From: Lentisphaeria bacterium
GTDB taxonomy: Bacteria; Verrucomicrobiota; Lentisphaeria; Victivallales; Victivallaceae
Direction of reading: 5' to 3'
NCBI GenBank assembly: GCA_017456285.1
Contig: JAFTJQ010000051.1
Coordinates: 1 to 59,794, forward strand
Length of the DNA stretch: 59,794 nucleotides
Both the position numbers and the translations under genes were made by a program. The number at the start of each line of letters is the position of its first letter. The first letter of the stretch is position 1. The notes beneath the pieces are model-generated. The model ran no database searches, had not been told where the DNA came from, and saw nothing but the letters and a program-made list of their open reading frames with translations. Below, in pieces: positions 2,891 through 54,247 of the stretch.

Positions 2891-2936
2891 GCGAACAAAG
2901 AGAAAACGAATAAAAATAAAAAAACAAATCACGGTA

Positions 2937-3049
2937 TTTTTTTGCTTTGAAAAAATGCGAGAGGCGAAGTTATAAATTGACCGAAGTGTACTTGAGGTAC
3001 ACGAGATGTCAATTTTAACAAGCCTATCCTTTTTTTCAAAGCAAAAAAA
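2937..3049. repeat. Nested palindromic element abutting tRNA-Asn
   Basis: Outer arms TTTTTTTGCTTTGAAAAAA (2937-2955) and its inverse (about 3030-3049) enclose AAATTGAC (2974-2981)/GTCAATTT (3008-3015). These enclose GTGTAC (2986-2991)/GTACAC (2997-3002) around a five-base loop. The right end directly follows the tRNA-Asn CCA. It looks like a MITE- or REP-like element. Half-copies ending in AAAAAGGATAGG occur at 54264 and 54484. Confidence 0.6.
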
Positions 3050-3124
3050 TGGCTCCAGCACCTGGATTCGAACCAGGGACCAAGTGGTTAACAGCCACCT
3101 ACTCTACCGCTGAGCTATGCTGGA
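3050..3124 (-). tRNA. tRNA-Asn (GTT)
   Basis: The reverse complement folds as a canonical tRNA. The acceptor TCCAGCA pairs with TGCTGGA, with discriminator G and an encoded CCA. The D-arm is AGCTCAGCGGTAGAGT, the anticodon loop is CTGTTAA with anticodon GTT, and the T-arm is CCTGGTTCGAATCCAGG. The 3' end abuts the palindromic element and toxin debris, as expected for an old integration site. Confidence 0.95.
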
Positions 3125-24613: not shown

Positions 24614-24708
24614 GTTTTTTTTCCTTTTTTTAGATAGTCGTGCGAAAAATTTCCGCACGATACCACTTATAATTCCTAATTCTTAATTCTGCATTTTTAA
24701 TTCTTAAT

Positions 24709-32590: not shown

Positions 32591-32609
32591 TTAAAAAAGG
32601 AAATTAACT

Positions 32610-33716
32610 ATGAAATTCTATAAATTTTTATTTGTGTTTGTTTTGGCAGTGGCGGCTTTTTGCCTTTATGCTGAACAACAACAAGCAGAAATAAAAAAAC
32701 TTACTCCCCGTGATAATATGAATATTCCTTCAATTAATCGGGGCGGAGAAAGTTATAGAATTATTGTTTTGGGCGATGTTCACTATGACGGAGCTGAATA
32801 TCACCACCATTTAAGCGAAAAGTGGAAAAAAATCATTAAGGCAATTCCTCGCAATATCGAAATGTGGGAATCCCGCATGGGTAAACTTTTGAGTGCCGCA
32901 AAATCACAGGCGACCTCAAAAACCGAAATGGTTATTCAGATCGGTGATTTGGTTGAGGGTAATTGCGGTAATGGCGAAGCGCATGTAAAAATGGTTACAG
33001 ATGCAATAAATTTCATGGATAATTTTTTCGGAGAGATTCCATTTTATTTCTGTGCCGGCAATCACGATTACAATGGGGATGATGCACAAGCGGCTTTTGA
33101 CAAAGCGGCATTGCCGTATTACAGCAAAATGCTCGGCAAAAAAGTTGCGAGCAGAAGTTATTATTTTACGGTAAAAAATGACCTCTTTATTTTTACTGAT
33201 TATAATAATCCCGATTTGGCGATGATTGAAAAGGCTTTGCAGGAAAACTCCGAAGCACGTTATAAATTTCTGGTAACTCACGGAAGTGTAATTCCAAGTG
33301 ATTTGCCGACTTTGCATGGATATTTCCTCTCAAAAGATGTTGAAAAATACAACTGCATGCGGGATTTGTTGTTGAAAAACGAGGTGATTGTTCTTTCGGG
33401 TCACAGCCATGTTTGTGAATTAATTGACTGCGTGGCTCAGGAGGGGCGTTTAACTCAAATTACACTCGATAGCCGTTGGACTCCTGCATATGTGATTGAG
33501 AAATCTCCCGGAAGTACAACTCCGCAGCAATACGGCAGACGGCAGAAGACTCCTGAAAAAATTGCCGAATATGCGAAGTATCAGGGAGTAATCAAGGAGT
33601 TTTATCAAAATTTCACTGCCGCTTATGCAATTTTGGATATTAATAATGACGGGATAGTAGTTAATTTCTATGTCGGAGATAAACTTGAAAGTAAATATTG
33701 TTACAAATTACGTTAA
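32610..33716 (+). CDS. Exported calcineurin-like metallophosphoesterase
   Basis: A 368-residue protein with signal peptide (hydrophobic core FLFVFVLAVAAFCLYA) and all metallophosphoesterase motifs: GDVHYDG (about 53-59), GDLVEGN, GNHDYNGDD, VTHGSV and SGHSHVCE. It should hydrolyse a phosphomonoester or diester in the periplasm. Ribosome site AAAGGA. It is unusual to find an exported phosphatase inside an otherwise cytoplasmic sugar operon; it may release sugar from a phosphorylated glycan before uptake. Confidence 0.87.
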   Translation: MKFYKFLFVFVLAVAAFCLYAEQQQAEIKKLTPRDNMNIPSINRGGESYRIIVLGDVHYDGAEYHHHLSEKWKKIIKAIPRNIEMWESRMGKLLSAAKSQATSKTEMVIQIGDLVEGNCGNGEAHVKMVTDAINFMDNFFGEIPFYFCAGNHDYNGDDAQAAFDKAALPYYSKMLGKKVASRSYYFTVKNDLFIFTDYNNPDLAMIEKALQENSEARYKFLVTHGSVIPSDLPTLHGYFLSKDVEKYNCMRDLLLKNEVIVLSGHSHVCELIDCVAQEGRLTQITLDSRWTPAYVIEKSPGSTTPQQYGRRQKTPEKIAEYAKYQGVIKEFYQNFTAAYAILDINNDGIVVNFYVGDKLESKYCYKLR

Positions 33717-33745
33717 TCTATAAACACTAACAAAGGAAGAAAATT

Positions 33746-35122
33746 ATGTCAAGAAAAGTAATTTTTATGCCGCATGCGAATATTCAGTATTCGCAGCTCG
33801 ACCCGAAACGCAGACAGTGGGTTTGCGAAAATTGTTATCGTCCGCTTTTTGAGCTGGTTCGTGACAATGATTACAAAGTAGCCTTTGAGGCATCAGGCAG
33901 AACTCTGGAAGTTATGGCAGAGGAAGCACCTGAAGTTCTCGCTATGCTCCGTGATTTGATTCACGCAGGCAAAATTGAGCCGATCGGTTCACCATTTATC
34001 CATGTTATGTTGGCAAATATCCCTGCTGAAGTCGCTTTGCACTCACTCAAACGCGGACTTGATGCTTGGGAAAAATACACCGGTGTTCGCCCCGAAACAG
34101 GTTGGAATCCCGAATGCGGTTGGGCGGGACACTTGCTTGATTTGTACAAAGAAGCAGGTTTTAAATCAATCGTTATGGATGCGGATAGTTTCCTCCTTTC
34201 TTTCCCGGAAATCCGTCAGGCAACCGGTTTGGCTTATGACGTAAATGGTCACAGCAACAAAAATCACCTCTTCAAAATTGAAGATTACATTCAGGACAAG
34301 GTTGAATTTTTGCGTTATTTAACCAATCCGTCAGTTGCACCGAATGGTTTGAAGATGATTTTCCGCAGTGACTGCATGGCAAATCCGATGTTGTGGTATC
34401 TTATGGGTGCTACCGAGGGTATGCGTGAGAAGCCGGTTGATTTGGATGAACTTAAAGAGATGTTCCTAAAGTGGCAGCCGAGAATTGACAAGTCCGGAAG
34501 TTTCATCATGCCGTATGCTGAAGATGCTGAATACATCGGTTCATCTGCTTACTTCTATGTTAAGCAGTTCAATCAGGCTCGTTTCTTTGAATCTGAACCC
34601 GATTCAATCAAACGCTTCAAAGAACTCCTCGATATGGCAAAAGCGATCGGTTATGAACTCTCAACTCCGGCTGAAGTTATTGCAAGTGCAAATGAGATTA
34701 TCGAAAATAACCTCGTTGACAATATCGAAAACGGTGCGGCTTGGCACGGTGGTACTTACAAAGCATGGGCTAATACCTCATACTCTCGTATTCTCGACCC
34801 GGTTTGCCGTTCAATCTATGACGGCGTAGTCGAACTTCGCAAACGTTTAGGCAACATGCCCGAACTCGAAGAAGCAATGAATGCGATTGAAAGCGCTTAT
34901 GTGTCAGATTCACGTTGGCCCCCGTTGCCGACTACTCCGGGACGTTTCAATGTTCGTGAGACCTTGGACGATCTCTATGCTGCCAATGACGCTTTGGCAA
35001 GAGCAATGGAGAAAGGTGGAATTGCCGAAAAACGTGCAATCTATTCTGCTCCGTTGATGAAAACTCAAATTGCTTTCGTTGAAAAAACTCTTATGGAGCA
35101 GAAGTATTTCGGCGAAGAATAA
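33746..35122 (+). CDS. GH57/38-like glycosidase or polysaccharide-deacetylase-fold protein
   Basis: A 458-residue protein with the seven-stranded barrel pattern of GH57-like proteins: MPHANIQYSQL, FEASGRTLEVM, GKIEPIGSPFIHVML, GWNPECGWAGHLLDL (Glu123, candidate nucleophile), and FIMPYAEDAEYIG (Asp candidate). No signal peptide. GH57 members act on alpha-glucans or alpha-galactosides with retention. Length and motifs diverge from characterised ones, so specificity is open. It is the fourth gene of the operon, after the phosphoesterase. Confidence 0.65.
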   Translation: MSRKVIFMPHANIQYSQLDPKRRQWVCENCYRPLFELVRDNDYKVAFEASGRTLEVMAEEAPEVLAMLRDLIHAGKIEPIGSPFIHVMLANIPAEVALHSLKRGLDAWEKYTGVRPETGWNPECGWAGHLLDLYKEAGFKSIVMDADSFLLSFPEIRQATGLAYDVNGHSNKNHLFKIEDYIQDKVEFLRYLTNPSVAPNGLKMIFRSDCMANPMLWYLMGATEGMREKPVDLDELKEMFLKWQPRIDKSGSFIMPYAEDAEYIGSSAYFYVKQFNQARFFESEPDSIKRFKELLDMAKAIGYELSTPAEVIASANEIIENNLVDNIENGAAWHGGTYKAWANTSYSRILDPVCRSIYDGVVELRKRLGNMPELEEAMNAIESAYVSDSRWPPLPTTPGRFNVRETLDDLYAANDALARAMEKGGIAEKRAIYSAPLMKTQIAFVEKTLMEQKYFGEE

Positions 35123-35137
35123 TATATTGAGTTTACT

Positions 35138-36115
35138 ATGAAAAAAGCAATTCTCCATTCAGCACATTTTCAATTGACTCACCGCTGTAACCTTGAGTGT
35201 GTTTTCTGCGGTCAGAGCAAGGGGCTTTTGGCTTCAAAAGAGTTGGAAATGGGGGTCGCTGAATGGATAAAAATTGCCTCTCAACTTAAAAAAGAGGCAG
35301 AAAAAAACGCTCTCACTCCCCGAATTATGCTTTGGGGAGGAGAGCCGCTTCTCTATGAGGGATTTGATTTCCTCGCAAATACGCTGAAAAATGACGGTAT
35401 CCGCTTGTCAATGGTAAGTAATGGCACTCTCCTCAATGAGCATATTGAAACTGTCAGAAATTGTATTGATACAATAAATATCTCACTCGACGGCGATCAG
35501 GTTCTGCATGATTCTGTTCGAGGGGCAGGGGTCTATGCTAAAGTTAACGAGAATTTGAAACTTCTTAAAAATCGGCAGGGCCGACTGGTTTTTTTGTGTA
35601 CCATTTCCGATATAAATGTCGATGTTTTTCCTGATTTGCCCTATAAATTAATGGAACTTGAACCTGATGAAATTATTTTGCAGCCGTTAATGTATTTGGA
35701 TAGTAATGAGATTGCTGAATACCGCAAATTCAGCAGAGAATATTTTAATCGTGATTACCCTGAATTGCTGGCTTGGGAGCGTAATAATGGAGATGTTTAT
35801 CAACAGAAAATTCAAAAAGGTTTAGAAATTTTTAATAATCAAAATTATCCGATCCCTGTCAGATTTACGCCTCACGCATTGGATAATTACTTGAATGAAA
35901 AAAGTTGCGATGCCGCTTGGAATCGCGTCCATATCCGCCACGACGGAGAGGTCGGGTTCTGTACGGATTACTTCAGTTTTTCAGCAGGTAATGTCAAAGA
36001 AAAAAGCCTTGCCGATATTTTTTACTCTGTTGAAGCCGATAAATTCAGACAGGCAGTTTTAAGTGAAAAACTTCCGCTTTGCCGTCATTGTCCGTGGCGT
36101 CTGCAAAAATTCTGA
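35138..36115 (+). CDS. Radical SAM protein with SPASM-like C-terminus
   Basis: A 325-residue radical SAM enzyme: Cys17-x3-Cys21-x2-Cys24 (HRCNLECVFCG) for the SAM-binding 4Fe-4S cluster, then LWGGEPLL, SNGTLL, and ISLDG. A C-terminal Cys set (SCDAAW, GFCTDYF, CRHCPW) resembles a SPASM/twitch auxiliary cluster. Such proteins modify peptides or mature enzymes such as sulfatases, though no sulfatase is present here. It starts 15 bases after the GH57-like gene and converges with the glycyl-radical activase with 16 bases between stops. The target is unknown. Confidence 0.85.
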   Translation: MKKAILHSAHFQLTHRCNLECVFCGQSKGLLASKELEMGVAEWIKIASQLKKEAEKNALTPRIMLWGGEPLLYEGFDFLANTLKNDGIRLSMVSNGTLLNEHIETVRNCIDTINISLDGDQVLHDSVRGAGVYAKVNENLKLLKNRQGRLVFLCTISDINVDVFPDLPYKLMELEPDEIILQPLMYLDSNEIAEYRKFSREYFNRDYPELLAWERNNGDVYQQKIQKGLEIFNNQNYPIPVRFTPHALDNYLNEKSCDAAWNRVHIRHDGEVGFCTDYFSFSAGNVKEKSLADIFYSVEADKFRQAVLSEKLPLCRHCPWRLQKF

Positions 36116-36131
36116 TTATTTTACATTCAAT

Positions 36132-36881
36132 TTATGATAAAATTTCACAGGGGACTTTGAGTTTAAAAAAATCCGGTAATTTTCCGCTGGGGCAGTTTTG
36201 GCATAACGGGTCAATTTCTTTCTGCAACAAAGCATATTTGGCACTTGCCATGCTATTTGAAGGCAAAAATTCGACCTTTTGTACTCTATCAAGCGAATTT
36301 ATGAGATTCATCAAGTCTCTCATATTATTTTCATTATCGATAATTTTTGCCAGCAACGGCATTCTGATTATGTAGGGAGTTTGACTCTGTTTATCTAAAG
36401 CAATCAGGTTATCGATTGCAGTTTTGCTGTCACATCCTGTCCAGAATTCAGATTTTCGGCTGTCAATAATTTTTAAGCCGTAATGGATAAGTGATACTTT
36501 TTCGGCAACTTTCAGCAGAAGTTGAGAATCGCATACTCCGCAGGTTTCTACTATGGTGTGAATATCGGGAATTTCGTTTAGCAATTCAAGCAGAAATTCC
36601 CCCTGCATTAATGGCTCTCCCCCCGAAAAGGTGATTCCGCCATTGTCAATTAATTCAGCGGTTTCACGCAGGTATTTGCCAAGTTTTTTTGCTTCGTAAA
36701 ATTCGCCTGCCATGCGATAAGTGCCGTCAGGCAAAAAGAGTTTTTCTATCTTCATGCTTTGACCTTCGGGAGAGTGACACCAGCGGCAACGCAAGGGACA
36801 GCCTTTGAAAAAAACTGTAATCCTTAAGCCATTGCCGTCATGCAGTGAACTCTCGTGAATGTCAAAAATTACGCCCGTCAT
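36132..36881 (-). CDS. Glycyl-radical enzyme activase 1
   Basis: A 249-residue radical SAM activase of the PflA type. GCPLRCRWCHSPEG holds Cys28, Cys32 and Cys35. It lacks the cysteine-rich ferredoxin insert common in eliminase activases. ITFSGGEPLMQ binds SAM, and IVETCGV and IIRMPLL follow the family pattern. It begins six bases after the stop of glycyl-radical enzyme 1, so it surely activates that protein. It abstracts H from the Gly of the partner to store a radical, under strict anaerobiosis. Confidence 0.92.
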   Translation of the reverse strand: MTGVIFDIHESSLHDGNGLRITVFFKGCPLRCRWCHSPEGQSMKIEKLFLPDGTYRMAGEFYEAKKLGKYLRETAELIDNGGITFSGGEPLMQGEFLLELLNEIPDIHTIVETCGVCDSQLLLKVAEKVSLIHYGLKIIDSRKSEFWTGCDSKTAIDNLIALDKQSQTPYIIRMPLLAKIIDNENNMRDLMNLINSLDRVQKVEFLPSNSMASAKYALLQKEIDPLCQNCPSGKLPDFFKLKVPCEILS

Positions 36882-36887
36882 CTTATT

Positions 36888-38918
36888 TTATTCTCCGTAG
36901 GCAGAGCGTCCGATAATATGATCCTGAAATACTTTGTCAAGTTCAACGAAGTAACCGCTCCAGCCCCAGACTCTGACGATTAAATCACGATGTTTATCGG
37001 GGTGTTTTTGGGCATCAAGCAGGACGGCTTTATTGAGAATATTCATTTGAAGCTGCTGGCAATTTGACTTGACAAATGCCCGAAGCAACTGGACAGTTTT
37101 ATCCAAAGCCTCCTCATTTTGAAAGTAAGAGGATGATAATTCAATTGTAATCGGCCCCCCATTGCAGATTCGGCTGTAATCAATACTGCTGAAACTTTTG
37201 AAAATACTTAAAAGTCCTTTGGTTTTAATTCCGGGAGCAGGGGAGAGAGAGGCACTTAAATACTCACGGTCACGGCGTCCGTCAGATGTAGCATGAACTC
37301 GCAACATGTGTTGGTCATTCTGTGAATAGACTGCATACATTGAAGCGGAACCACTGCCGGGGCGGATTTTTAATTGGTATTTAGCAGAAATTTCATCGAC
37401 GGCATCAGCAAATTTGTCATAGATAGTTTTCAATAGGTAATTTGAAAACTCATCATTGTCGCCGAGGTGTGGAATATTTTTGAGTATCATTCGCAAATTT
37501 TCAGCATTTTCGTAGTTGTTATTTACCGCTTGTACGAGTTCTTCCGGTGCAACTGATTTTTCGTCATAGACATATTTTTTGACGGCAAAAAGTGAATCAA
37601 CTGCGGTGGACGCACCGCAACTTAACATGCCCCAAAAATTGTGGTCGCCGCCGCCATATTGAATATCACGCCCCCGCTCCAAGCATTTGCCCATAAAGGC
37701 GGAAAAAAGCGGATTGGGAATGTATTTCAGTCCCTTTTTGATTACCCACTCGAATTGCTCAATCAATTCGGATTTGATAATGTCAAAAATTTCCTCAAAC
37801 TCTTGATTTTCCGTTAATGCCTTATGAATTGATTTTTCTGTTGCCAGTGCCAAATTGACGCACCACGGATTTAAGAGGTCTCTACCGTTTTTTACCACAA
37901 ATTCCCAGCAGGCGGCAACGGTGTAATCTCTGGCATCTTCCAAATTATAACCGAATTTAACCAACGCAGGAATAACAATATCATCATTGCTGTATTGCGG
38001 AAATCCCAAACCTTTGGCAGTTAATTTAGTGCCGGCAATCAATAAATCATGAGGAGTTTCAGAGTTTATGCGGAGATTGATTTTGGGGTTAATCATCGAA
38101 AGTTCTTCAGCACATTCCAGCAATAAATAGGTCAATTCATTCACCGCATTTTTGCCGTTGCGATCGCATCCGCCGAGCATCAGAGATTCGCCGTCATCGC
38201 CCTGTTGAAGCATGCCGTAGAGGTCGTTATTGCGGTTTAAGGCAATGAAAAATTCTAAAAATAAGTCTTTGGCTTGTTCGGGAGTTAAAATACCTTTTTC
38301 GAGATCGGAGCGATAGAATTTAATTAAGTATTGATCCATTCTGCCAAGTCCCTGCAATGTTACCCCCGTCAGGTAAAAAATTGAGAACATGAAATAGATT
38401 GATTGCAATGCTTCATGCAGAGTTTCCGCCGGATTCAGCGGTACACGTCGAAGCAGTTTTGCCGCTTGTAAATTGCCGCACTTCTCGGCTTCTGCCGCAT
38501 AGCGTTCGGCGAAAGCTGCAACATCACGCAGCATGGAAATTGAACTATTTAAAAACTCTTTTTCATCAGCAGATAAATTAGGTTCAGTCAACTTTTTTTC
38601 GGCACATTTTATGCGGTTTATCAAACCGTTATTAAGTACCATTTCCCAGTCGCAAGTAATATTCTCCACTCGTCTGCCGTAACTCCAGTCGATATTTACC
38701 CGTTGTTTGAAACTTTCGATATAGAAGAAGTTTTCGTCCTCTGCAACAATCGGTTTGGCTGTATTCAAAAGTAAGTGCAATATTTCCGCAATTGCTGACG
38801 GGGAGATTGATTTTCTCAAAATATTATCAATTTTTTCTTGCGGCACATCGCAAGTACGGAATTTTTTATAGTACAAAGTTCTCGTTTTTTCCTTTAATTG
38901 CTGCAAATAATTTTTCAT
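36888..38918 (-). CDS. Glycyl-radical enzyme 1, substrate unknown
   Basis: A 676-residue member of the PFL/glycyl-radical superfamily, shorter than pyruvate formate-lyase (about 760) or glycerol dehydratase (about 790). The thiyl Cys is Cys337 in VAACWEFV, with Glu339 two on, the Cys-x-Glu arrangement of radical eliminases. The radical Gly is Gly652 in VRVWGWSGYF near the C-terminus, with Trp on both sides instead of Ser/Ala and Tyr/Phe. No CC motif, so it is not PFL. The operon holds only the activase. An MFS importer and an AraC regulator stand upstream, pointing to an imported sugar or polyol as substrate. Confidence 0.9.
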   Translation of the reverse strand: MKNYLQQLKEKTRTLYYKKFRTCDVPQEKIDNILRKSISPSAIAEILHLLLNTAKPIVAEDENFFYIESFKQRVNIDWSYGRRVENITCDWEMVLNNGLINRIKCAEKKLTEPNLSADEKEFLNSSISMLRDVAAFAERYAAEAEKCGNLQAAKLLRRVPLNPAETLHEALQSIYFMFSIFYLTGVTLQGLGRMDQYLIKFYRSDLEKGILTPEQAKDLFLEFFIALNRNNDLYGMLQQGDDGESLMLGGCDRNGKNAVNELTYLLLECAEELSMINPKINLRINSETPHDLLIAGTKLTAKGLGFPQYSNDDIVIPALVKFGYNLEDARDYTVAACWEFVVKNGRDLLNPWCVNLALATEKSIHKALTENQEFEEIFDIIKSELIEQFEWVIKKGLKYIPNPLFSAFMGKCLERGRDIQYGGGDHNFWGMLSCGASTAVDSLFAVKKYVYDEKSVAPEELVQAVNNNYENAENLRMILKNIPHLGDNDEFSNYLLKTIYDKFADAVDEISAKYQLKIRPGSGSASMYAVYSQNDQHMLRVHATSDGRRDREYLSASLSPAPGIKTKGLLSIFKSFSSIDYSRICNGGPITIELSSSYFQNEEALDKTVQLLRAFVKSNCQQLQMNILNKAVLLDAQKHPDKHRDLIVRVWGWSGYFVELDKVFQDHIIGRSAYGE

Positions 38919-39031: not shown

Positions 39032-40399
39032 CTATTTTTGACTCGGTAACGGCGGATTGTAGTTCTGATCTCCGCCCAAAAGTTTGAATTTTTTCAGCAC
39101 TGCGAGCAAGGCGGATATGGCTCCGACGATAACCACAATGGCAAAAACAAAAACCAGTTTGTAATTACGATTGCTTGAGTCCAGAATAAAGCCGAAAAGC
39201 ATCCCAAAAAGTGTATTCCCAAGTGCCAAAATCATCCCGAATGCCGAATTGAATTGGGCAAAAAGAGCGCGCGGAAAAAGTCTTTGCGGCAAGGAGGCGG
39301 AGACGGTAAAATAACACCCTGACAAAAATGTATGCAAGGCAAGAATAATCAGAAAACTTTTCGCATCTCGGACAAAAATCAGACCTGCAATCATCGAAAA
39401 TAGATAAAATATTGCCCCGACAATACTGGTGCGAAGCGGATGAAATTTATCTGCCAGTATCCCCAATGGAAAACTTACGATGAAAGACAGCAGGTAAATT
39501 GAGGCACAAATTTTGCCGTAAATATCCATATCGACATTCAACTCTTTAGCATAAAGAATTGCATACATATTGTAGGGAACGGAGATAAAACAACTTAAAG
39601 TTAATGCCACCATTACCAGCAGATAATAGGGGTGTGAAAAACATTGTTTGAAATAGGTGAATATCGGCTTGAAAATATTTCCGGATTTATTTTGCCCAGC
39701 GAACTCTTCTTCCAAGGACGGATATTCGCCCTCTTTGACTTTGAGGCACAGCATGGTTAAGCCGATACCGTAAAGCACTCCGACTCCCGTGAATATGTAG
39801 AGGTAATATGACTCGATTAACCCCATTAAATACCAGTTGAAAATCATCCCTGCAAGCAGACTTACTGCACGGAAAAGTCCGTAGAACCTCCCCAGAAGTT
39901 CCTGCGGTACTACATCATTAATTAATGCTCCGGATAATGCCCCTGACAAAGTTGTGCCGAAGTCCATAAAAATCCAGAACAAGCCGAACCAAATCAATGC
40001 CCAGCTATTGTAACTTATTTGAGTGAAATTTTCGCTGAAAAATTTTGCCAGCATCGGCACAAATCCAAGACCGATTGAACCTGCGACAATGAATGGAGTA
40101 GTAAATGCCAGAAACGGTATGCGACGCCCGAATCTGCCCCGATGACGGTCGGAAATATAACTGATAATCGGGGTTAGAAAAATATTGGTGAAATTCGGAA
40201 AGGAGATAATTATAAGCGAATAAACTAAATCTGATACCCCGAATTGGCGGATAAGCAAAGTTGCAGCAGGCACGATTGCACGATCTTTCATCGCCCAGGC
40301 AAAATCTCCGCCTAAAAGCCAAACGAAAAGTACTACTAAACTACTAACTGTATAGACCAAAGTTCCGCAATAATATTTTTTTTGATTTTTGTTGTCCAT
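39032..40399 (-). CDS. MFS transporter (sugar importer-like)
   Basis: A 455-residue inner-membrane protein with twelve hydrophobic segments. The cytoplasmic loop ISDRHRGRFGRRIPFL between TM2 and TM3 matches MFS/GPH sugar:cation symporters, and the equivalent loop GILADKFHPLRTS occurs in the second half. It lies upstream of the glycyl-radical genes on the same strand with its own promoter, and divergent from an AraC regulator. It probably imports the substrate used by glycyl-radical enzyme 1. Specificity unknown. Confidence 0.85.
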   Translation of the reverse strand: MDNKNQKKYYCGTLVYTVSSLVVLFVWLLGGDFAWAMKDRAIVPAATLLIRQFGVSDLVYSLIIISFPNFTNIFLTPIISYISDRHRGRFGRRIPFLAFTTPFIVAGSIGLGFVPMLAKFFSENFTQISYNSWALIWFGLFWIFMDFGTTLSGALSGALINDVVPQELLGRFYGLFRAVSLLAGMIFNWYLMGLIESYYLYIFTGVGVLYGIGLTMLCLKVKEGEYPSLEEEFAGQNKSGNIFKPIFTYFKQCFSHPYYLLVMVALTLSCFISVPYNMYAILYAKELNVDMDIYGKICASIYLLSFIVSFPLGILADKFHPLRTSIVGAIFYLFSMIAGLIFVRDAKSFLIILALHTFLSGCYFTVSASLPQRLFPRALFAQFNSAFGMILALGNTLFGMLFGFILDSSNRNYKLVFVFAIVVIVGAISALLAVLKKFKLLGGDQNYNPPLPSQK

Positions 40400-45841: not shown

Positions 45842-46741
45842 ATGAGCAAAGTAATTTCAGCATCAATCACTCCGTTGAAAAATGACGGAAGTATTGACAA
45901 ACAAGGGGTTAAAAATGTTTTTGATCGCAACATCAAACACGGCTTGGACGGTGCATTTATCCTCGGAACTATGGGCGAATGGGGCGGCTTGAGCGACAAG
46001 GTCAAAGAAGAGTATGTCGAAACTGCCTGCGAAGCAACCAAAGGAAGCGGCTTCGAACTTTTGGTAGGTGTTAATGCTACTTGCTTGCCTTTGAGTTTGG
46101 AAACTATGAAAAATTACTCAAAATATGAGTTTGACAGTTATGTATTTATGCCGCCGGGAAAAACCTCTTGGTTAGACCCGATCAAAGCAATTTTGACTGT
46201 TTGCGACAAAGCTGACAGACCGGTTTACTATTACCACTGTCCGCCGAATAACGGAGTTAACTTGTCTTTGGCTGACTTTGAAAAAATTATGAGACATCCG
46301 AACTTGAAAGGTATCAAAAACTCTGCTTCAAATATGTGGCTTCGCCGTGAATTGATTTTCATGAAAAAAGAATTGGGTCTCAAAACTTTGATCCTCGAAG
46401 GTCAGGAATGGGCTGTCGATGAAGCAATGATGGCAGGTTATGACGGTATGGTTTGCGGCTGCGGTGCTTTGTGTTCAAAACCGATGGTCGGTATTGCTCG
46501 TGCGATTGAGCGTGTGGATTATGCTGAAGCGGTTCGTTTGCAGAATGTTTTAATTGAAATTTATCACAGCATCTATGGAATCGGACTTGATCACATCTGG
46601 ACAGGTACTAAATATGCTTTGGTCAAACTTGGTTTGATTGATAGTTACTACACCAGTGCGCAGGAAATGGATTCACTTAATGATGCACATAAAAAGCAAA
46701 TCGATGAGTGCTTAATTAAATTCAAAGCAGAATTGGATTAA
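45842..46741 (+). CDS. Dihydrodipicolinate synthase/N-acetylneuraminate lyase family protein
   Basis: A 299-residue class I aldolase of the DapA/NanA superfamily: the GTMGEWGGLS loop (GTTGE type), YYYHCPPNNGVNL with the catalytic Tyr, LKGIKNSASN with the Schiff-base Lys, and GYDGMVCGCGAL. It cleaves or condenses a 2-keto acid with pyruvate. The exact substrate (sialic acid, keto-deoxy sugar acid or other) cannot be read; context argues against lysine synthesis. The ATG at 45842 has AAAGGAAAAAG. It is followed after five bases by a transporter and controlled by the FadR-type operator upstream. Confidence 0.85.
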   Translation: MSKVISASITPLKNDGSIDKQGVKNVFDRNIKHGLDGAFILGTMGEWGGLSDKVKEEYVETACEATKGSGFELLVGVNATCLPLSLETMKNYSKYEFDSYVFMPPGKTSWLDPIKAILTVCDKADRPVYYYHCPPNNGVNLSLADFEKIMRHPNLKGIKNSASNMWLRRELIFMKKELGLKTLILEGQEWAVDEAMMAGYDGMVCGCGALCSKPMVGIARAIERVDYAEAVRLQNVLIEIYHSIYGIGLDHIWTGTKYALVKLGLIDSYYTSAQEMDSLNDAHKKQIDECLIKFKAELD

Positions 46742-46746
46742 TAAAG

Positions 46747-47628
46747 ATGATTACAGGCTTATTAAGTGCATTTGCAAGTGGGGTTTTGACCATATTTTTC
46801 GGTGTTGTTTTTAAGCATGCCGGCGATAAATATGACTTCAAAAATACCATGCTTGTTTATGCTTTATTTAATACTGTAGTATTTTTAGGAATAGCACAAT
46901 TTATGTCGGGGAGCTGGGTGAAGTTTGCCTGGCTTCCTGCAATTTTGAGTTTTGCTTCGGGTGCGGTGAATATTTCCGGACTTATGGCATTGCAGAAAGC
47001 GATGTCGCTTGGAAATTCGGGGGTGGCATGGGCATTTTGTCAAGCAGGGTTGCTCGGACCATTTTTTTTCAGTATCGGCTGTTTCGGAGAGAGACCGGAT
47101 TTTTTGCAATATGTCGGAGCAATAATGATTGTGCTCGGCATGATTTTTTTAAGCGGCGGTGATTCGTCAGCGGCCGATAAGACGGGGAAAAGTAATTTTG
47201 TCTATTTGATTTTTGCTTTTTCTTCATTTCTTTTAGCATGTATCAATGGGTCATTGGGAGTGTCGGTAAGTAAGATTGCTCCTGATTTTTCCATTGCGGT
47301 TCGCAGTTTTTGTATGTACAGCGGTACAGTGGTAATGCTGGCAGTATTTAAGTTAGTCTCTGATAGAGCCAAAATTGTGATAAATAAGCCTGTTTTAATT
47401 GCAGTTGTTCTGCTGGCATTTTTCGGTTTAAGCAGTACCGTAACAACTTTTGTTGCATTGAATGAACTTGCAAAAGTCGATATGGCAAGTATCACAGTGC
47501 CGGTTTTGCAGGGAACTGCAATCGGCGGATTTGCCTTGTACAGTACCTTTGTGCTTAAAGAAAAATGTTCACTCCTCAAATGGTGTGGGATAATTGCGAT
47601 TATTTTGGGCATAGTATTTTTGGTATAA
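46747..47628 (+). CDS. EamA/DMT-superfamily transporter
   Basis: A 293-residue ten-helix membrane protein. Two five-TM repeats are visible. Each ends with a typical EamA helix pattern (YVGAIMIVLGMIFLSGG and LLKWCGIIAIILGIVFLV), and AMSLGNSGVAWAFCQAGLLGP is in the first half. The family moves small metabolites or sugars across the inner membrane. Paired with the lyase, it probably imports the keto-acid sugar or exports a product. A strong terminator follows. Confidence 0.82.
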   Translation: MITGLLSAFASGVLTIFFGVVFKHAGDKYDFKNTMLVYALFNTVVFLGIAQFMSGSWVKFAWLPAILSFASGAVNISGLMALQKAMSLGNSGVAWAFCQAGLLGPFFFSIGCFGERPDFLQYVGAIMIVLGMIFLSGGDSSAADKTGKSNFVYLIFAFSSFLLACINGSLGVSVSKIAPDFSIAVRSFCMYSGTVVMLAVFKLVSDRAKIVINKPVLIAVVLLAFFGLSSTVTTFVALNELAKVDMASITVPVLQGTAIGGFALYSTFVLKEKCSLLKWCGIIAIILGIVFLV

Positions 47629-47633
47629 AAAAA

Positions 47634-47681
47634 CCGCAAGTAAAAAAATAGAAAAATTTTTACTTGCGGATTTGTTTTTTT
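47634..47681 (+). terminator. Intrinsic terminator after the lyase-transporter operon
   Basis: CCGCAAGTAAAAA (47634-47646) pairs with TTTTTACTTGCGG (47657-47669), followed by ATTTGTTTTTTT. It separates this operon from the kinase/glycyl-radical operon. Confidence 0.9.
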
Positions 47682-47709
47682 AAATAATGGTATTATATTA
47701 TGATACCAT
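47672..47709 (+). promoter_or_regulatory. Promoter and operator of the kinase/glycyl-radical operon
   Basis: TTGTTT (47672-47677)-16 bp-TATATT (47694-47699). A near-palindrome with arms ATGGTATTAT and ATGATACCAT (47687-47709, three-base centre, one mismatch) covers the -10 box. A bound repressor would exclude polymerase. The GntR/LacI-type regulator encoded in the same operon is the obvious candidate. Confidence 0.65.
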
Positions 47710-47738
47710 TTAAGAAAAAATAAACGGAGGTTTTGATA

Positions 47739-49016
47739 ATGATTTTATCACTCGGACTTGATATCGGAACTACTAAAAGTGCTTGTGTCGTCAGAGATAC
47801 GGCAGACGATAAATTACTTTTTTGCCGCAGCCTGATTCATAATGCATCGCTCGGCGACGGAGTTCAATCGGTGAAAAAGCATCGGGAAGTTTTACATGAA
47901 CTTATTTCGGCGATTCCCGAAAACTTACGCAAGGACATTGAAACAATCGGAGTAACGGGGCAAATGCACGGAGTGCTTTGCTGGAATGAAGTTGAGACGA
48001 CGGAACTTTTTACATGGCAAAGTCAGGTTGATGAATTAGCGGAGATTCAAAAAATTGATTCTACGCTGCAGAATGGATTCGGGATTACTACTTTAGCTTC
48101 ATTGTCGTTGAAAGGATTTGATTTTTCAAAATATCGATATTCGGGAACTATTCACGATTATGCGGTTTATCTTTTTTGCGGAAAAAGCGTAATTGATTAT
48201 ACCGATGCGGCGAGTTTCGGGGCGTATGATATAGAGAAAAATTGTTTCAAAGAAGATGTTATTAAAAAATTGAACATTCCTGAAAAAATTCTTCCGCATG
48301 TTGTTGCAGTCGGTTCTGTCGTCGGCGAAACTTGCAACTTTCAGAATCTAAAAGACGGAATTAAAGTTATGGCGGCAATCGGCGATAATCAAGCAAGTGT
48401 TTTTGCCTCCTGCTCTAATATGAGAGATGAATTATTTTTGACTATCGGTACCGGGATTCAGCTTTCAGGCGTGGTGGATAAAATTGTTGATGAAGTGGAA
48501 ATACGTCCCTTCGTTGACGGAAAATTTTTGGCGGTTGCTTCTCCCTTGTGCGGAGGAGCGGCATGGGCTTGGCTTGAGAAATTTATCAAAGGAACTATTA
48601 ACTTATTGGGAGTAAAAGAGCTTTCAGATGAAGAAATTTATAAGTTTATGGACGAAGTTGCTTTGAAAGAAATTTCAAGCACCGATCTCCCTCGAATCAT
48701 GCCGAATTTTTTGGGTGAACGGGGGGAGATTAATTTGCGTGGCAGTATTACTAATTTGACATTGGATAATTTTTCAATCGGCAAAATTGCGGCGGCATTG
48801 GCGTTGGGAATCATTAAAAATTTATTCAATATGATGCCTGAAGCAGTATGGCAAAGCAAAAAAAGTTTGATTGCATCAGGGAATGCAATTAGAAAAAGTA
48901 CCGCCTTGCAGCAAGCATGCAGAAAAATAAGCAGGATGAATCCGATTTTGATTGAAAGTTGTGAGGAAGCGGCTCAAGGTGCGGCAAAATTGAGTGAGAG
49001 ATTAGTTGATAGATAG
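47739..49016 (+). CDS. FGGY carbohydrate kinase (sedoheptulokinase-like)
   Basis: A 425-residue FGGY kinase phosphorylating a sugar or polyol with ATP. LGLDIGTTKSACVV is the phosphate-1 loop, GVTGQMHGVLCWN the sugar-binding region, IGDNQASVFASC the second phosphate motif (catalytic Asp), and TIGTGIQLSG the adenosine region. It is shorter than xylulokinase and resembles the SHPK branch. The ATG at 47739 has GGAGG eight bases upstream. First gene of the operon, so the substrate of the glycyl-radical enzyme, or its product, is probably a sugar phosphate. Confidence 0.85.
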   Translation: MILSLGLDIGTTKSACVVRDTADDKLLFCRSLIHNASLGDGVQSVKKHREVLHELISAIPENLRKDIETIGVTGQMHGVLCWNEVETTELFTWQSQVDELAEIQKIDSTLQNGFGITTLASLSLKGFDFSKYRYSGTIHDYAVYLFCGKSVIDYTDAASFGAYDIEKNCFKEDVIKKLNIPEKILPHVVAVGSVVGETCNFQNLKDGIKVMAAIGDNQASVFASCSNMRDELFLTIGTGIQLSGVVDKIVDEVEIRPFVDGKFLAVASPLCGGAAWAWLEKFIKGTINLLGVKELSDEEIYKFMDEVALKEISSTDLPRIMPNFLGERGEINLRGSITNLTLDNFSIGKIAAALALGIIKNLFNMMPEAVWQSKKSLIASGNAIRKSTALQQACRKISRMNPILIESCEEAAQGAAKLSERLVDR

Positions 49017-49025
49017 AGGCTTAAA

Positions 49026-49877
49026 ATGCGGATTTTTTCATCAGGGTGGAGTGATAATAAGGATGGACCGGGGTTGCGGTACATAATTTATTGCAAAGGA
49101 TGTAATTTGAATTGCTGTTATTGCGGAAATCCGGAAAGTATTAATTATGACATTGAAGTATTGCGTTACAAAGAGCGAGACAGCAAAGTCGATTTGGCAA
49201 AATGTTGTCAGCATAATTCGGACTGCAAAAATTGCCGAACTTTTGAGTGTGTCAATGTTTACCGCCATAGACAAATGGAACTTGTCGGCGAGGATTTGCC
49301 GATTGGCACAATCATTGAAAAAATACAAAGTATGCGGCACATGATTGACGGAGTTTCGATTGGCGGAGGCGAGCCGACTTTGCAGATTAACGAAGTGCTG
49401 GAACTTATAAAAGAGTTGAAAAATCTTGGTATCCATACGGCAATAGAAAGTAATGCTTCGACGGCGAATTATCAGAAAGTTTTGGGCGTGGTTGATTACT
49501 TAATCAGCGATCTCAAAGCAGGGACAGACGAAGGGTATAAAAAAATCACCGGGCAAAGTAATGCTGCTGTGAAAACAAATTTGCGGGCGGCAGCAAAACT
49601 GCAAAAAGATTTTTTAATTAGAATTCCGCTTATTACTGATTATAATACATCGGAAATTGAGTTAATGGCAATGAGGGAATTTTTATTGGAGTTAAAGAGT
49701 TTGCATGGCGGAGAATTGTCAGTTCAAACTCTGCGGCTTCATCATGCAGGATTGGTTAAGTATCAGGCACTGGATAGGGATTATCTGCTTCAAAATGCAG
49801 TGCCGCCAAGCGTGGAATTTCAGAAAAATTTTGAAGATTTATTACGCAAAGATGGTTTTGATATTTTGAGTTTTTAG
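49026..49877 (+). CDS. Glycyl-radical enzyme activase 2
   Basis: A 283-residue radical SAM activase. CKGCNLNCCYCGNPES gives Cys26-x3-Cys30-x2-Cys33. A second cysteine set (Cys60, 61, 67, 70, 75) replaces the ferredoxin insert of eliminase activases and should hold an extra Fe-S cluster. SIGGGEPTLQ binds SAM. It lies nine bases after the kinase and 36 before glycyl-radical enzyme 2, its evident partner. It differs clearly from activase 1, so the two systems are not duplicates. Confidence 0.9.
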   Translation: MRIFSSGWSDNKDGPGLRYIIYCKGCNLNCCYCGNPESINYDIEVLRYKERDSKVDLAKCCQHNSDCKNCRTFECVNVYRHRQMELVGEDLPIGTIIEKIQSMRHMIDGVSIGGGEPTLQINEVLELIKELKNLGIHTAIESNASTANYQKVLGVVDYLISDLKAGTDEGYKKITGQSNAAVKTNLRAAAKLQKDFLIRIPLITDYNTSEIELMAMREFLLELKSLHGGELSVQTLRLHHAGLVKYQALDRDYLLQNAVPPSVEFQKNFEDLLRKDGFDILSF

Positions 49878-49912
49878 GAAAAAAATAAATAAAATAATAA
49901 GGAGTTTTTATT

Positions 49913-52231
49913 ATGAATATTTACAGTGAAGGCGTAGAAATTTTGCGAAAAGGCAAAAAAGAGCAAGTGGTTGTTAATAATTGGTTCTATGTACAGGAAC
50001 AGAAAATGGAGATTATTCAGAATTTGACGAAAGATAAAAATTTTATAGTTAATTCTCCATTGGGACAAGCCCGAATATTAAAAGAACTTGCTGAAGTAAT
50101 TAAATTGGAATTGCCTGCCGGATCGGTTTTTGCAGGAACTCAGGATGTGGCTTTTTCTCCATCTTATGCCTTGATTAATCCTGCTTTCAAAGTGGAGAGT
50201 TTCGGCGGTTACTGTGACCCGTGTGCGATTTATGACGATGTGGTAATTGAGGGAGATATAACTGTTGAGCGGGTAGAAAAAGTGCGGAAATTTTATCGTG
50301 ATGATGAGTATGCGTCACAACTTTTTACGCACTATGATAATTATGAAAAAGCGATTTCTGAAGTGGTGTTTTTTATGGAGCCTGTAACCGGGCATACGAT
50401 TCCTGATGTGCGTCCGTTTTTAAGCAACGGTGTTTTGGCAATGCAGGCAAAATGCAGTGATTCTGATTTCGGCAAGGCGATGAAAACAGCACTTGATGCG
50501 GTTTTGATTTTGGGAGAAAGATATTGTAAATTGGCAATTACAGAAGCAGAAAAAGCAACTGATAAAAATGAAAAAATTCGATTAACTCAAATGGCAGAGC
50601 GTTTGGAGAGAGTGCCTGCACAAGGAGCAAAAAATTTAGCGGAAGCAATTCAAATGTTTATTCTGTTATGGGAAGTAATGGTGCTTGAACAAGCTCCTAA
50701 TCCTTATGCATTTTCAGTCGGAAATATGGATAGAATTTTTGCACCGTACATGGCTGGAACAACTTTTGAGGATGCAGTGGCTTATTTCCGTCATCTGCTG
50801 GCATTTTTTATCGTCGGCAGTCGGGGGTGGGCAATTTCTCAAAATATTATGGTCGGAGGTTCTGATGAGCATGGTAATGATTTAAGCAGTGATGCAACTT
50901 ATGCGGTTTTGGAGGCATTTTTTATCAGCAATGATCCGCAGCCGGCCTTGTCTGCTAAAATTCATAAGAATACTCCGGATAAATTTTATCAGGAACTGGG
51001 AAGATTTTTTGCAACGCCGGGTCATTCAACACCGTCACTTTTTAATGATGATTCGATGTTTGAGATGTTGCGTAAGCAAGGGATTGCGGAGAGTGATTTA
51101 GCTTTTTACTCCATTGCGGGGTGTCAGGAGCCTTTGATTATGGGCAAAAGTTCACTCAATACGACTAATACTTGGCTCAATTTGGGAAAAATTTTGGAAT
51201 TGACTTTGAATAATGGATATTCGCTTATAAGCGGTAAAAAACTTGCTCCTGATTTTATGGAACTCGGATATAATTCTCAAGCTGATGTTTGGAATAATTT
51301 AGAGGAAGCATTCTGGAAGATGTTGGATTTTTTCCTTCCGCAAATGGCGGCGGCAGGGAATGGATGTACTGCGATTTTGGGAAATAATAAAATGGTACCG
51401 ATGACTTCAATCATGCATGACGGCTTGAAGTTTGACCGTGACATGAGAGATCCGGAAAATCCCGGTATTACTTACAATGGGAGTGGTTGTTTGATTCATG
51501 GTTTAAGTGTGGTTGCAGACTCTTTTTATGCAGTGCAAAAGGCATTGCCGATTTTCGGTTATGAGAAAATTTCAGCGGCGTTAAAGGCTGATTATCAGGG
51601 TTTTGAAGAGATTCAGGAGTTTTTGCAGAATCAGGATAAGTATGGTAATAATATTGATGAAGTTGATGTAATTGCAGTAAGAGTGGCTGAAAAAACTGCC
51701 AAAAAAGTTGCGGCTTTGAAAAATAATGCAGGCAATAACTATTGTGCAGATTTTTCAACTCCGAGTACCCATTTGCTGTATGGTTATTGGGTAGGGGCAA
51801 CGCCCGACGGCAGAAATTCGCGAAAAATGCTTGGTTACGGAATTGACCCGCGTCCGGAAAGTTGCAGTGCTCCATTGCAGAGCCGCATTATAAGTGCCAG
51901 AAAACTGCCTTTTTATTTGATGAATGGCGGTTATGCTTCACATATCGGGATTCCGTGTCAGGGGAACAGTTTGGGTAATGCAGGCGAGTGGATGCGTGAC
52001 AGAGTGATTAAACCATTATTTGCAATTACCGATAATTCTGAAGTACCTTACTATGTTTACTTTAATTTGGACAGTACCGAATATTTGCGAAAAATTCTTA
52101 CCAATCCCAAACTTTATGTGCCAAGCGGAGTTTATATCATGCGAATTCATGGCACATTTGTAAATTTCCTTGACCTCTCAAGTGCGATTCAGGAGGATAT
52201 TATTCAACGTTTGGAGGCATCGGCAATATGA
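49913..52231 (+). CDS. Glycyl-radical enzyme 2, probable sugar-phosphate eliminase
   Basis: A 772-residue glycyl-radical enzyme. Thiyl Cys404 and Glu406 lie in IAGCQEPLIMG, the Cys-x-Glu of eliminases/dehydratases. The radical site is Gly747 in IMRIHGTFVNFLDL, 26 residues from the C-terminus. The usual RV(S/A)G(Y/F) is here R-I-H-G-T, a marked departure. No CC motif, so it is not PFL. AAGGAG ribosome site. Kinase and isomerase in the same operon point to a phosphorylated hexose or polyol substrate. E. coli PflD and YbiW are, to my knowledge, glycyl-radical enzymes acting on anhydrohexitol phosphates and give a precedent. Identity of substrate unknown. Confidence 0.88.
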   Translation: MNIYSEGVEILRKGKKEQVVVNNWFYVQEQKMEIIQNLTKDKNFIVNSPLGQARILKELAEVIKLELPAGSVFAGTQDVAFSPSYALINPAFKVESFGGYCDPCAIYDDVVIEGDITVERVEKVRKFYRDDEYASQLFTHYDNYEKAISEVVFFMEPVTGHTIPDVRPFLSNGVLAMQAKCSDSDFGKAMKTALDAVLILGERYCKLAITEAEKATDKNEKIRLTQMAERLERVPAQGAKNLAEAIQMFILLWEVMVLEQAPNPYAFSVGNMDRIFAPYMAGTTFEDAVAYFRHLLAFFIVGSRGWAISQNIMVGGSDEHGNDLSSDATYAVLEAFFISNDPQPALSAKIHKNTPDKFYQELGRFFATPGHSTPSLFNDDSMFEMLRKQGIAESDLAFYSIAGCQEPLIMGKSSLNTTNTWLNLGKILELTLNNGYSLISGKKLAPDFMELGYNSQADVWNNLEEAFWKMLDFFLPQMAAAGNGCTAILGNNKMVPMTSIMHDGLKFDRDMRDPENPGITYNGSGCLIHGLSVVADSFYAVQKALPIFGYEKISAALKADYQGFEEIQEFLQNQDKYGNNIDEVDVIAVRVAEKTAKKVAALKNNAGNNYCADFSTPSTHLLYGYWVGATPDGRNSRKMLGYGIDPRPESCSAPLQSRIISARKLPFYLMNGGYASHIGIPCQGNSLGNAGEWMRDRVIKPLFAITDNSEVPYYVYFNLDSTEYLRKILTNPKLYVPSGVYIMRIHGTFVNFLDLSSAIQEDIIQRLEASAI

Positions 52232-53211
52232 AAGGAAATGTAAATAATAAAACTGCAGAACTTCGCAATCTGATATTCAGAGAAATTTTAAGCGGAACTT
52301 ATCAGGTCGGAGAGAAATTACCTGCTGAACGGGAGATGGCGGAGCGATACAGCTTAAGCAGAGTAACCGTCCGCCGAGCCTATGAAAATTTGGAGCAAAG
52401 CGGCATTGTTATTCGTAAGCAGGGGCTCGGAACTTGTGTGGCGGATTTTTGTCGTGCCAATAGTTATTCAGGTAATATTATCGGACTTTTGATTAACGGA
52501 GCAGACCGTTTTGCCTGGGATTTCATTCGAGAGATTGAAACTCAAGTTCGGCTTTTGGGTGGCTTATTGGTTTTGAGGTTGACGGATGATGATGCACAAC
52601 TTGAGGAATCTGCTGCGATTGATTTGGTCGGTCAGGGTATTCAGAATTTGATAATTTGGGCTTCGGGCAAAGATTTTAAGTCTGAAACTTTCGAGAGGTT
52701 GCGGGTTTTGGGGACAAATATGGTCTTTTTTGATCGTATGATTCCCGGGGATTATGCGGATTATGTCGGTGTGGATAATAATGATATTATGGAGAAATTA
52801 TTTGATAAAGCACCTAAAAATATTGAAAAAGCGCTCTTTTTGAATCACCGTATCCCCTTTGATTCTGATAAGTTGCGTGAAAAATATTTTGTCCGGCAAT
52901 GCGGTAATCGAGGGATCGCCCCAACGGTTAAACGAATTGATTATGCGGAGTTGAAAAATATCAATTATCAGGAATTTGATGCCGTTTTTTGTGTTAATGA
53001 TGATATGGCAATGCAAGTCTATGAGCTTGATTCGGAGATTATGCTTTTCGGGATTGACGGATTGTGTCATAAATTTGTAAGTTACCGACAGCCGATGAAA
53101 ATGATGGCAGAGCGGATTATCGAGTTGCTTAATAGGCAACGATTGAGCGGAGATAAGTGGAAAAGTCGTAAAATTTTTGAAAAGGGAGAAATTTGTGAAA
53201 AAGTGCAGTGA
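52228..53211 (+). CDS. GntR-HTH/LacI-type sensor regulator of the operon
   Basis: A 327-residue regulator of the AraR plan. The winged helix is LRNLIFREILSGTYQVGEKL, LSRVTVRRAYENLEQSGIVI and KQGLGTCVAD. It is followed by a sugar-binding-protein-like domain (IIGLLINGADRF, LIIWASGKDFK, MVFFDRMIPGDY, DAVFCVNDDMAMQV, IMLFGIDG). It starts inside the stop of glycyl-radical enzyme 2 (ATGA overlap), so it is co-translated. It probably represses the operon at the palindrome over the -10 box and is relieved by the pathway sugar. Confidence 0.9.
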   Translation: MKGNVNNKTAELRNLIFREILSGTYQVGEKLPAEREMAERYSLSRVTVRRAYENLEQSGIVIRKQGLGTCVADFCRANSYSGNIIGLLINGADRFAWDFIREIETQVRLLGGLLVLRLTDDDAQLEESAAIDLVGQGIQNLIIWASGKDFKSETFERLRVLGTNMVFFDRMIPGDYADYVGVDNNDIMEKLFDKAPKNIEKALFLNHRIPFDSDKLREKYFVRQCGNRGIAPTVKRIDYAELKNINYQEFDAVFCVNDDMAMQVYELDSEIMLFGIDGLCHKFVSYRQPMKMMAERIIELLNRQRLSGDKWKSRKIFEKGEICEKVQ

Positions 53212-54247
53212 TTTGTTGTTTTTCCGCCCGAATCGGGTGTGGCGGTGTTATTTAGGTGGAGAGTTGCTGGATAAATTCATGGGGAGTGAGTCTGGCGGTG
53301 ATAACCTTTTCCCCGAAAATTGGCTGGGGTCGGTGACTGCGGCAGATAATGGTGAACATAGTACATCTGAAAATGAGGGTTTATCGCAAACGCTGCAAGG
53401 AGATTTTTTCTGTGATTTATTGCAGCAAAACAGCCTTGAATTGTTGGGAAATCAAGGTGGAAATTTAGGGGTATTGTGTAAATTTTTGGATTCTGCAATT
53501 CGTTTGCCGCTGCAATGCCACCCCGATAAAGAGTTTGCCCGTAAATATTGCAACAGCGATTACGGAAAAACTGAAAGCTGGTTTATTCTGGATACCAGAG
53601 AGATTAATGGGGAAAAGCCTTATATATTGTTGGGATTCAAAGAAAATGTAGATAAAAAGTTGTTCAAAAAAGCCGTTATGACGCAGGATATTGATAGCCT
53701 GCTTAATATGATGCACAAAATTGAGGTTAAAAAGGGCGATGCCTTTTTTATCCCCGGTCGAATCCCTCATGCAATCGGAAGCGGAGTTTTTATGTTGGAG
53801 GTACAGGAACCGACTGATTTGGTTGTCCAGCCTGAACGCAAAATCGGAAATATTCAGCTGTCCGACAAAGATATGTGGCAGAATTTAACTCCGGAATTGG
53901 GTTTGGAGTGTTTCAATTATCAGGGCGAGAGCCGTGAAAAAATCCTTGAAAAGTTACAGATTAAACCCCGGAAAATCAGCGAAAATATGCTTTCGTTGAT
54001 AGATGAAAAATTAACTGATTGTTTTCAGGTTAAACAACTTAATTTAGGGGTTAGAGATAAAATTGTATTGCCGCTTGATAGGTGGTATCTGGGAGTGGTT
54101 ACTTCGGGGAAAGGCGAAGTGAAAAGTTTCGGTAAAAATTATTCAATCCGCCGAAGCGATTGCTTTTTTGTCCCGGCAAGTGCCGAAGAGCTTGAGTTTG
54201 AAAATTCAGGAAGCGAAAATCTGCAAATTTTCCTTATAAATTCATAA
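53195..54247 (+). CDS. Class I mannose-6-phosphate isomerase-like protein
   Basis: A 350-residue cupin-type isomerase. The zinc site is visible as LPLQCHPDKEFARK (Gln and His), KTESWFIL (Glu) and GRIPHAIGSG (His). VQEPTDLVVQPER and a C-terminal cupin (FFVPASAEELEFEN) follow. These are features of Bacillus-type PMI. It starts at GTG 53195 with GGGAG, overlapping the regulator by 17 bases. Mannose-6-phosphate isomerase converts aldose and ketose 6-phosphates, so it should feed or drain the phosphorylated sugar handled by the operon. Confidence 0.88.
   Translation: MKKCSDLLFFRPNRVWRCYLGGELLDKFMGSESGGDNLFPENWLGSVTAADNGEHSTSENEGLSQTLQGDFFCDLLQQNSLELLGNQGGNLGVLCKFLDSAIRLPLQCHPDKEFARKYCNSDYGKTESWFILDTREINGEKPYILLGFKENVDKKLFKKAVMTQDIDSLLNMMHKIEVKKGDAFFIPGRIPHAIGSGVFMLEVQEPTDLVVQPERKIGNIQLSDKDMWQNLTPELGLECFNYQGESREKILEKLQIKPRKISENMLSLIDEKLTDCFQVKQLNLGVRDKIVLPLDRWYLGVVTSGKGEVKSFGKNYSIRRSDCFFVPASAEELEFENSGSENLQIFLINS

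Follow-up and report, generated by a model that had tools for sequence, protein, structure and literature searches.

What does a glycyl-radical enzyme (GRE) do in an operon that also encodes a sugar kinase and a sugar isomerase? The question is raised by a contig of 59,794 nucleotides from a Lentisphaeria bacterium (JAFTJQ010000051.1, analysed at its full length and hereafter referred to as the window), in which five same-strand genes, from an FGGY kinase to a phosphomannose-isomerase (PMI)-like protein, occupy positions 47739–54247 of the forward strand and a palindromic operator overlies the promoter (Table 1). Gaps of 9 and 35 bp separate the kinase from the radical SAM activase and the activase from the GRE, and the remaining junctions overlap. 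An earlier note on this DNA had listed this five-gene set and its close, overlapping arrangement, and all genes were found as it described them. Its interpretation, a sugar pathway combining a kinase, a radical C-O eliminase and an isomerase, is retained here, but not its hexose-type kinase, its order of steps or its entry into glycolysis through a PPi-dependent phosphofructokinase: the gene for the latter (3585–5246) is ∼42 kb distant and has no visible link to the operon. I also agree with the note that the substrate cannot be assigned.

Directly upstream of the operon (45842–47628, forward strand) are genes for a DHDPS/NanA-family aldolase and an EamA-type transporter. The hairpin that follows consists of a perfect 13-bp inverted repeat (CCGCAAGTAAAAA...TTTTTACTTGCGG) and then a T-run, the latter read directly, and is not flagged by an automatic terminator scan. 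I considered these two upstream genes as pathway members and rejected them, as the hairpin lies in between and they are absent at homologous loci. Elsewhere in the window, two tandem secreted BNR-repeat (sialidase-like) paralogues are found at 22934–26409 (reverse strand; the Pfam basis is for the first only), and an ORF at 1514–3061 (reverse strand) shows a weak match to PBECR1, a phage-type nuclease fold, and contains the internal repeat 'ENQKKLRFSLKNG'.

Table 1. Features of the GRE operon and its upstream boundary, in window coordinates.
Feature	Position	Strand	Basis or remark
Terminator-like hairpin and T-run, end of upstream EamA-transporter gene	47634..47681	+	
Operator, 23-bp palindrome ATGGTATTATATTATGATACCAT over the promoter	47687..47709		Kept where homologous loci encode a GntR regulator
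FGGY kinase, 425 aa, sedoheptulokinase (SHPK) type	47739..49016	+	Profile comparison
Radical SAM GRE activase, 283 aa, CxxxCxxC = CKGCNLNC	49026..49877	+	TIGR02494 family
Glycyl-radical enzyme (GRE), 772 aa, C404-Q-E406, G747 in RIHGT loop	49913..52231	+	
Transcriptional regulator, GntR winged helix and LacI-type sugar-binding domain, AraR-like architecture	52228..53211	+	
Class I PMI-like protein, Gln212 for the PMI active-site Arg	53195..54247	+	

The GRE matches the PFL-like family PF02901 (317 bits), and in place of the canonical RV(S/A)G(Y/F/W) loop it possesses RIHGT (R744-I-H-G747-T748). Both this loop and the GCQE motif (C404-Q405-E406) are invariant in 34/34 rows of the clade, which marks the unusual loop as characteristic of the clade and speaks against a sequencing error in either motif; the eliminase-type Cys404-x-Glu406, the 772 residues and the R-I-H-G-T loop reported in the earlier note are thus correct. 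Pfam Gly_radical (PF01228) detects the window's second GRE and finds no match in the 772-aa enzyme, because the loop is too diverged. I nevertheless maintain the assignment to the GRE superfamily, since the glycine, the fold and the activase are all present: in alignments with solved GREs, G747 falls on their radical Gly and C404 on their Cys, an AF2 model (pLDDT 83.4, pTM 0.89) adopts the GRE fold with a TM-score of about 0.8 to solved GREs, and a dedicated radical SAM activase adjoins the gene (TIGR02494 match of 153 bits, under the family cut-off).

Among solved GREs, the clade profile scores 272 bits against glycerol dehydratase (GDH), 247 against propanediol dehydratase, 233 against AfPFL2 and about 175–207 against PflD, HypD, YbiW and CutC, and glycerol dehydratase also ranks first among structural matches of the model. 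In GREs with a CxE motif, a hydrogen is abstracted at a C-OH carbon and a neighbouring group is then lost with the help of the Glu. The CxE motif and the dehydratase-like best matches point to a predicted C-O eliminase. With the glycerol/1,2-propanediol dehydratases (PDB 1r8w, 9rco) the enzyme shares the ten-strand GRE fold, the thiyl Cys, the CxE motif and a conserved His (H161 here, H164 in GDH). However, identity to these B12-independent enzymes is about 22–25%, the loop is RIHGT and not RVAGY, no microcompartment or diol genes are found here, and an HMM alignment places Y265, A266 and T418 at the positions of the glycerol-binding GDH residues His281, Ser282 and Asp447.

In pairwise comparisons the enzyme shares about 24–28% identity with PflD, YbiW, HypD and further GREs. 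Subfamily matches in NCBIfam are below cut-off only, and its equivalogs (HypD, CutC, HpsG, HpfG and others) give at best 191.5 bits, for a cut-off of 1100. In a maximum-likelihood tree of 34 clade members and seven other GREs, the clade is set apart by a stem 4.0 changes per site long (support 100/100); as the program warns of long branches, the claim drawn from this is separateness only, with no sister group. The earlier note had held that clustering inside a characterised subfamily would speak against it, and I looked for such clustering and obtained a separate clade instead. On these sequence comparisons, the enzyme belongs to a separate deep clade that constitutes a new GRE subfamily. It is apparently undescribed so far: in the open literature, subscription papers aside, I found no description of this system, no paper joining a GRE with a sedoheptulokinase and none on anhydroglucitol and GREs, and the papers that mention glycyl radical enzymes together with mannose-6-phosphate isomerase are seemingly irrelevant, although a prior description is possible.

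Only the second GRE of the window has a longer stem in this tree. It is an unrelated, short GRE (676 aa; 36132–38918, reverse strand, including its own activase at 36132–36881), with AACWEF at the Cys position and an RVWGW loop, on a very long branch, and an MFS sugar transporter is encoded at 39032–40399. Facing it, at 30738–36115 (forward strand), are genes for a dehydrogenase, a xylose-isomerase-like TIM barrel, a phosphoesterase, a GH57-like protein and a SPASM radical SAM protein.

The clade of the 772-aa GRE was found in about 38 sampled genomes of anaerobic bacteria from two distant phyla. Close members are present in 21/388 genomes across the window's own phylum, in 18/137 of its order, and in 14/391 of a sample covering a class of Clostridia; across the phylum of the Clostridia seed (398 genomes), the seed genome alone carries the GRE. 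A genome scan with a single GRE protein as query reached only three Clostridia contigs. Synteny was assessed in 39 loci (the window, L028–L050, L069–L080 and L103–L105). An FGGY kinase adjoins the GRE in 36/37 assessable loci, L028 and L029 being left out of this count as their contigs end inside the GRE, and 28/32 assessable loci have an aldose-ketose isomerase, in most cases the PMI-like protein. The conserved synteny whose absence the earlier note had named as a second refutation therefore recurs, and these loci have a constant core made up of GRE, activase and kinase. The isomerase is missing beside the GRE in four Clostridia loci (L069, L071, L073, L074), and the kinase in L041 (genome G256), where GRE, activase, aldolase and a D-lyxose/D-mannose isomerase (LyxI) are found without an adjoining FGGY kinase; its close relative L039 differs.

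This distribution bears on whether the operon might simply serve mannose or fructose, with the GRE as a passenger or in an unrelated function such as pyruvate formate-lyase. An isomerase and a ketokinase do suffice for mannose, and the GREs of the genome include a PFL-like protein (694 bits to PFL-like), but GRE and activase are constant, CxE replaces the Cys-Cys of PFL, and the core is kept across two phyla. Synteny and motif have already largely refuted this reading, which I consider hardly credible.

The neighbours outside the core are optional. They include a mutarotase (L050, L079), a class II aldolase (L039, L041), a fructokinase-like kinase (L079), an FSA-family aldolase between GRE and kinase (L070), Fe-alcohol dehydrogenases (near L071 and L077) and glycosidases of families GH38, GH32, GH172 and GH2 that differ between lineages. 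I looked for one glycosidase from which the sugar could be read off and rejected the idea, as GH38, GH2, GH32, GH172, GH43 and GH42 occur near the loci or near PMI-like paralogues and none is universal. Downstream of the PMI-like gene, L072 and L076 encode a 353-aa protein that matches nothing in Pfam or PDB, and L072, L076 and L078 each have genes for an EamA transporter and for a URO-D-like protein.

For the kinase, the family profile gives 303 bits to SHPK, 115 to XylB, 100 to GlpK and 85 to FucK, with at most 115 for any of XylB, GlpK, FucK, AraB, RhaB and LyxK. The E. coli FGGY kinases were taken from NC_000913, and an unverified human sedoheptulokinase sequence served as the SHPK reference, so that the SHPK-type label presumes this reference to be correct. 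To SHPK (CARKL) the kinase shows 24–33% identity over the whole length against the same reference; the human enzyme has no GRE link. Subject to that reference, the kinase is predicted to be sedoheptulokinase-like rather than of the generic hexose type that had been proposed.

A sedoheptulokinase-like kinase would fit a heptose from LPS or plants, whereby L- or D-glycero-D-manno-heptose would be converted to a heptulose and its 7-phosphate, and the GRE would strip the C6/C5 oxygen, erasing the awkward C6 stereocentre. Manno-type isomerases can in principle give sedoheptulose from D-glycero-D-manno-heptose, and GH38 could serve as an alpha-manno-heptosidase. Against this, no heptose-specific gene was found, GH32 and GH172 suggest fructose-like sugars, and the SHPK label depends on the unverified reference; I regard this version as distinctly unlikely.

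The PMI-like protein keeps the metal-site motifs QCHP, GKTESW and PHAIG, in common with class I ManA (1qwr; QxHP, GKTExW, PHAIG), and matches the class I PMI profile with 92 bits. It differs from ManA in scoring below the curated manA cut-off (59.5 bits, for a cut-off of 116) and in one active-site residue: where E. coli ManA and the separate housekeeping PMI of this genome carry the Arg of SDxxxR, 21/21 readable GRE-linked copies have Gln. This Arg is needed for PMI catalysis or phosphate handling, and its replacement therefore suggests that the substrate is probably different from that of PMI or unphosphorylated. In other genomes the protein is replaced by LyxI (L039, L041, L079) or an AraA-like enzyme (L036), and the assemblies of two LyxI users (G094, G256) lack a PMI-like gene of this type altogether. 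To me this looks like non-orthologous displacement and suggests that the PMI-like protein likewise works as an aldose-ketose isomerase, on a sugar of the manno/lyxo type. With the Arg lost and free-aldose enzymes as replacements, it probably acts before the kinase, and not after the radical step as had been supposed.

Paralogues of the PMI-like protein outside GRE loci (L144–L161) carry Val or Arg at the position of the SDxxxR Arg. I rejected them as a clue to function, their neighbours being mostly unannotated; seven adjoin a 630–660 aa protein, of which one was scanned and matched nothing in Pfam, and the paralogue in L154 adjoins yet another, unrelated GRE.

My best explanation, which I hold tentatively and at somewhat short of an even chance, is catabolism of a manno/lyxo-configured aldose (C5–C7, with a hexose or heptose favoured) by isomerisation, phosphorylation and radical C-O cleavage, in this order. 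The PMI-like protein, or LyxI or an AraA-like enzyme in other genomes, would convert the aldose to a ketose, and the sedoheptulokinase-type FGGY kinase would phosphorylate the latter. The activase would generate the glycyl radical on G747 and, from this, the thiyl radical on C404, which would abstract a hydrogen from a hydroxyl-bearing carbon of the sugar (phosphate) while E406 helps to expel the neighbouring C-O group. The deoxy-dicarbonyl sugar (phosphate) so formed would enter glycolysis through an aldolase. The gene set, the motifs, the clade, the synteny, the exchange of the isomerase and the operator are observed, whereas step order, substrate and product are inferred. In favour of this reading, the gene core is constant, the kinase profile is of SHPK type, the GRE resembles C-O eliminases, the regulators are of sugar type in all lineages and the operator sits at one locus; isomerase and ketokinase are naturally consecutive, the mutarotase, glycosidase and aldolase neighbours fit entry of an aldose or ketose, and the Arg to Gln change in every GRE-linked copy fits a free or different sugar, a case to which the genome's separate ordinary PMI adds. 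On the other side stand the isomerase-less loci L069, L071, L073 and L074, the kinase-less L041 and the lineage-variable glycosidases. Moreover, mannose, lyxose and D-glycero-D-manno-heptose reach central metabolism after isomerisation and phosphorylation alone; as the common manno/lyxo aldoses need no radical step, an unusual sugar is required. I also know of no GRE acting on a ketose phosphate. The narrower proposal, that the GRE acts on a C6 or C7 ketose phosphate delivered by the isomerase/heptulokinase pair and thus on a new substrate class, is conceivable, if doubtful.

The closest known sugar-phosphate chemistry is that of E. coli PflD and YbiW, solved with 1,5-anhydromannitol-6-P and 1,5-anhydroglucitol-6-P according to their PDB titles, and it suggests that E. 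coli radical glycolysis might run here in a variant form. From the kinase would then come an anhydrohexitol-6-phosphate, from ring opening by the GRE would come 1-deoxyfructose-6-phosphate, and an aldolase would split this into G3P and hydroxyacetone. C-O eliminase chemistry on a phosphorylated sugar would be common to both systems, E. coli fsaA adjoins ybiWY, and L070 likewise has its FSA-family aldolase. However, identity to PflD and YbiW is 24–26%, the GRE lies outside their clade (100/100 support, long branches) in a deep clade of its own, an FGGY kinase is found instead of a PTS, and the aldose isomerase is extra and would have no role. Furthermore, fructose-6-phosphate aldolase (FSA) is absent from 28/36 GRE-clade genomes, the window's own included, and its presence in 8/36 carriers compared with 6/44 non-carriers shows no enrichment. 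As most carriers lack this aldolase, I rejected a YbiW/PflD-type route as a general answer, and the anhydro-sugar substrate considered in the earlier note is disfavoured in the form of a copy of that route; the variant as such seems to me very improbable.

The operator bears on how much of the metabolism the cassette must cover. The regulator matches, by profile, GntR DNA-binding domains (AraR included) and LacI-type sugar-binding domains, confirming the GntR/LacI-type assignment, and the 23-bp palindrome over the promoter, also anticipated in the note, is kept at homologous loci. It is presumed to be the site of this repressor, which would sense the sugar and let go of the operator, making the cassette inducible. 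AraR-type repressors have the same domain pair and a palindromic operator; here the consensus is TGGTATTATANTATAATACCA, and it is located 5′ of the first gene or between a divergent PMI-like gene and the GRE. Its score exceeds all shuffles in most homologous loci with a GntR gene, and no convincing operator was found in the Clostridia loci, whose regulators are AraC or ROK; all these lineage-specific regulators are typical of sugar catabolism. A strict operator pattern matched in 9 of 48 genomes, 7 at the GRE locus and 2 at stray sites. A wider regulon was considered and rejected, as the search gave these two stray sites only. With the operator nearly unique per genome, the detectable regulon is one locus, and the pathway looks self-contained.

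A one-locus regulon also fits the main alternative, in which the GRE acts first, cleaving a glycoside or ether (glycosyl-glycerol- or glycosyl-polyol-like) so that the aldose leaves from a carbon adjacent to a C-OH, and the freed aldose is isomerised and phosphorylated to an ordinary ketose phosphate, F6P, Xu5P or S7P for instance. The three enzymes alone would then reach central metabolism. Glycerol dehydratase is the closest solved GRE in both sequence and fold, L079 has a mutarotase and a fructokinase-like kinase, and reduction of the second product could fall to the Fe-alcohol dehydrogenases encoded near L071 and L077. However, GH38 and GH172 inside some operons would make a radical cleavage redundant, and I know of no GRE that expels a sugar, so I consider this order of events unlikely, if still worth keeping in view.

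Solved GRE functions (choline, hydroxyproline, isethionate, anhydrohexitols and others) have each opened a metabolic route of anaerobes. The present clade matters for its long stem, its RIHGT loop, which violates the accepted motif, its fixed small set of partners and its own operator; this is a conserved, self-regulated sugar cassette, more than chance. The fixed partner enzymes and the operator make the search for the substrate practical, with three enzymes and one repressor, and the 23-bp operator is usable as a biosensor. If isomerisation and phosphorylation do precede the radical step, a GRE acting on a ketose phosphate would represent a new anaerobic route of sugar breakdown, common to two phyla.
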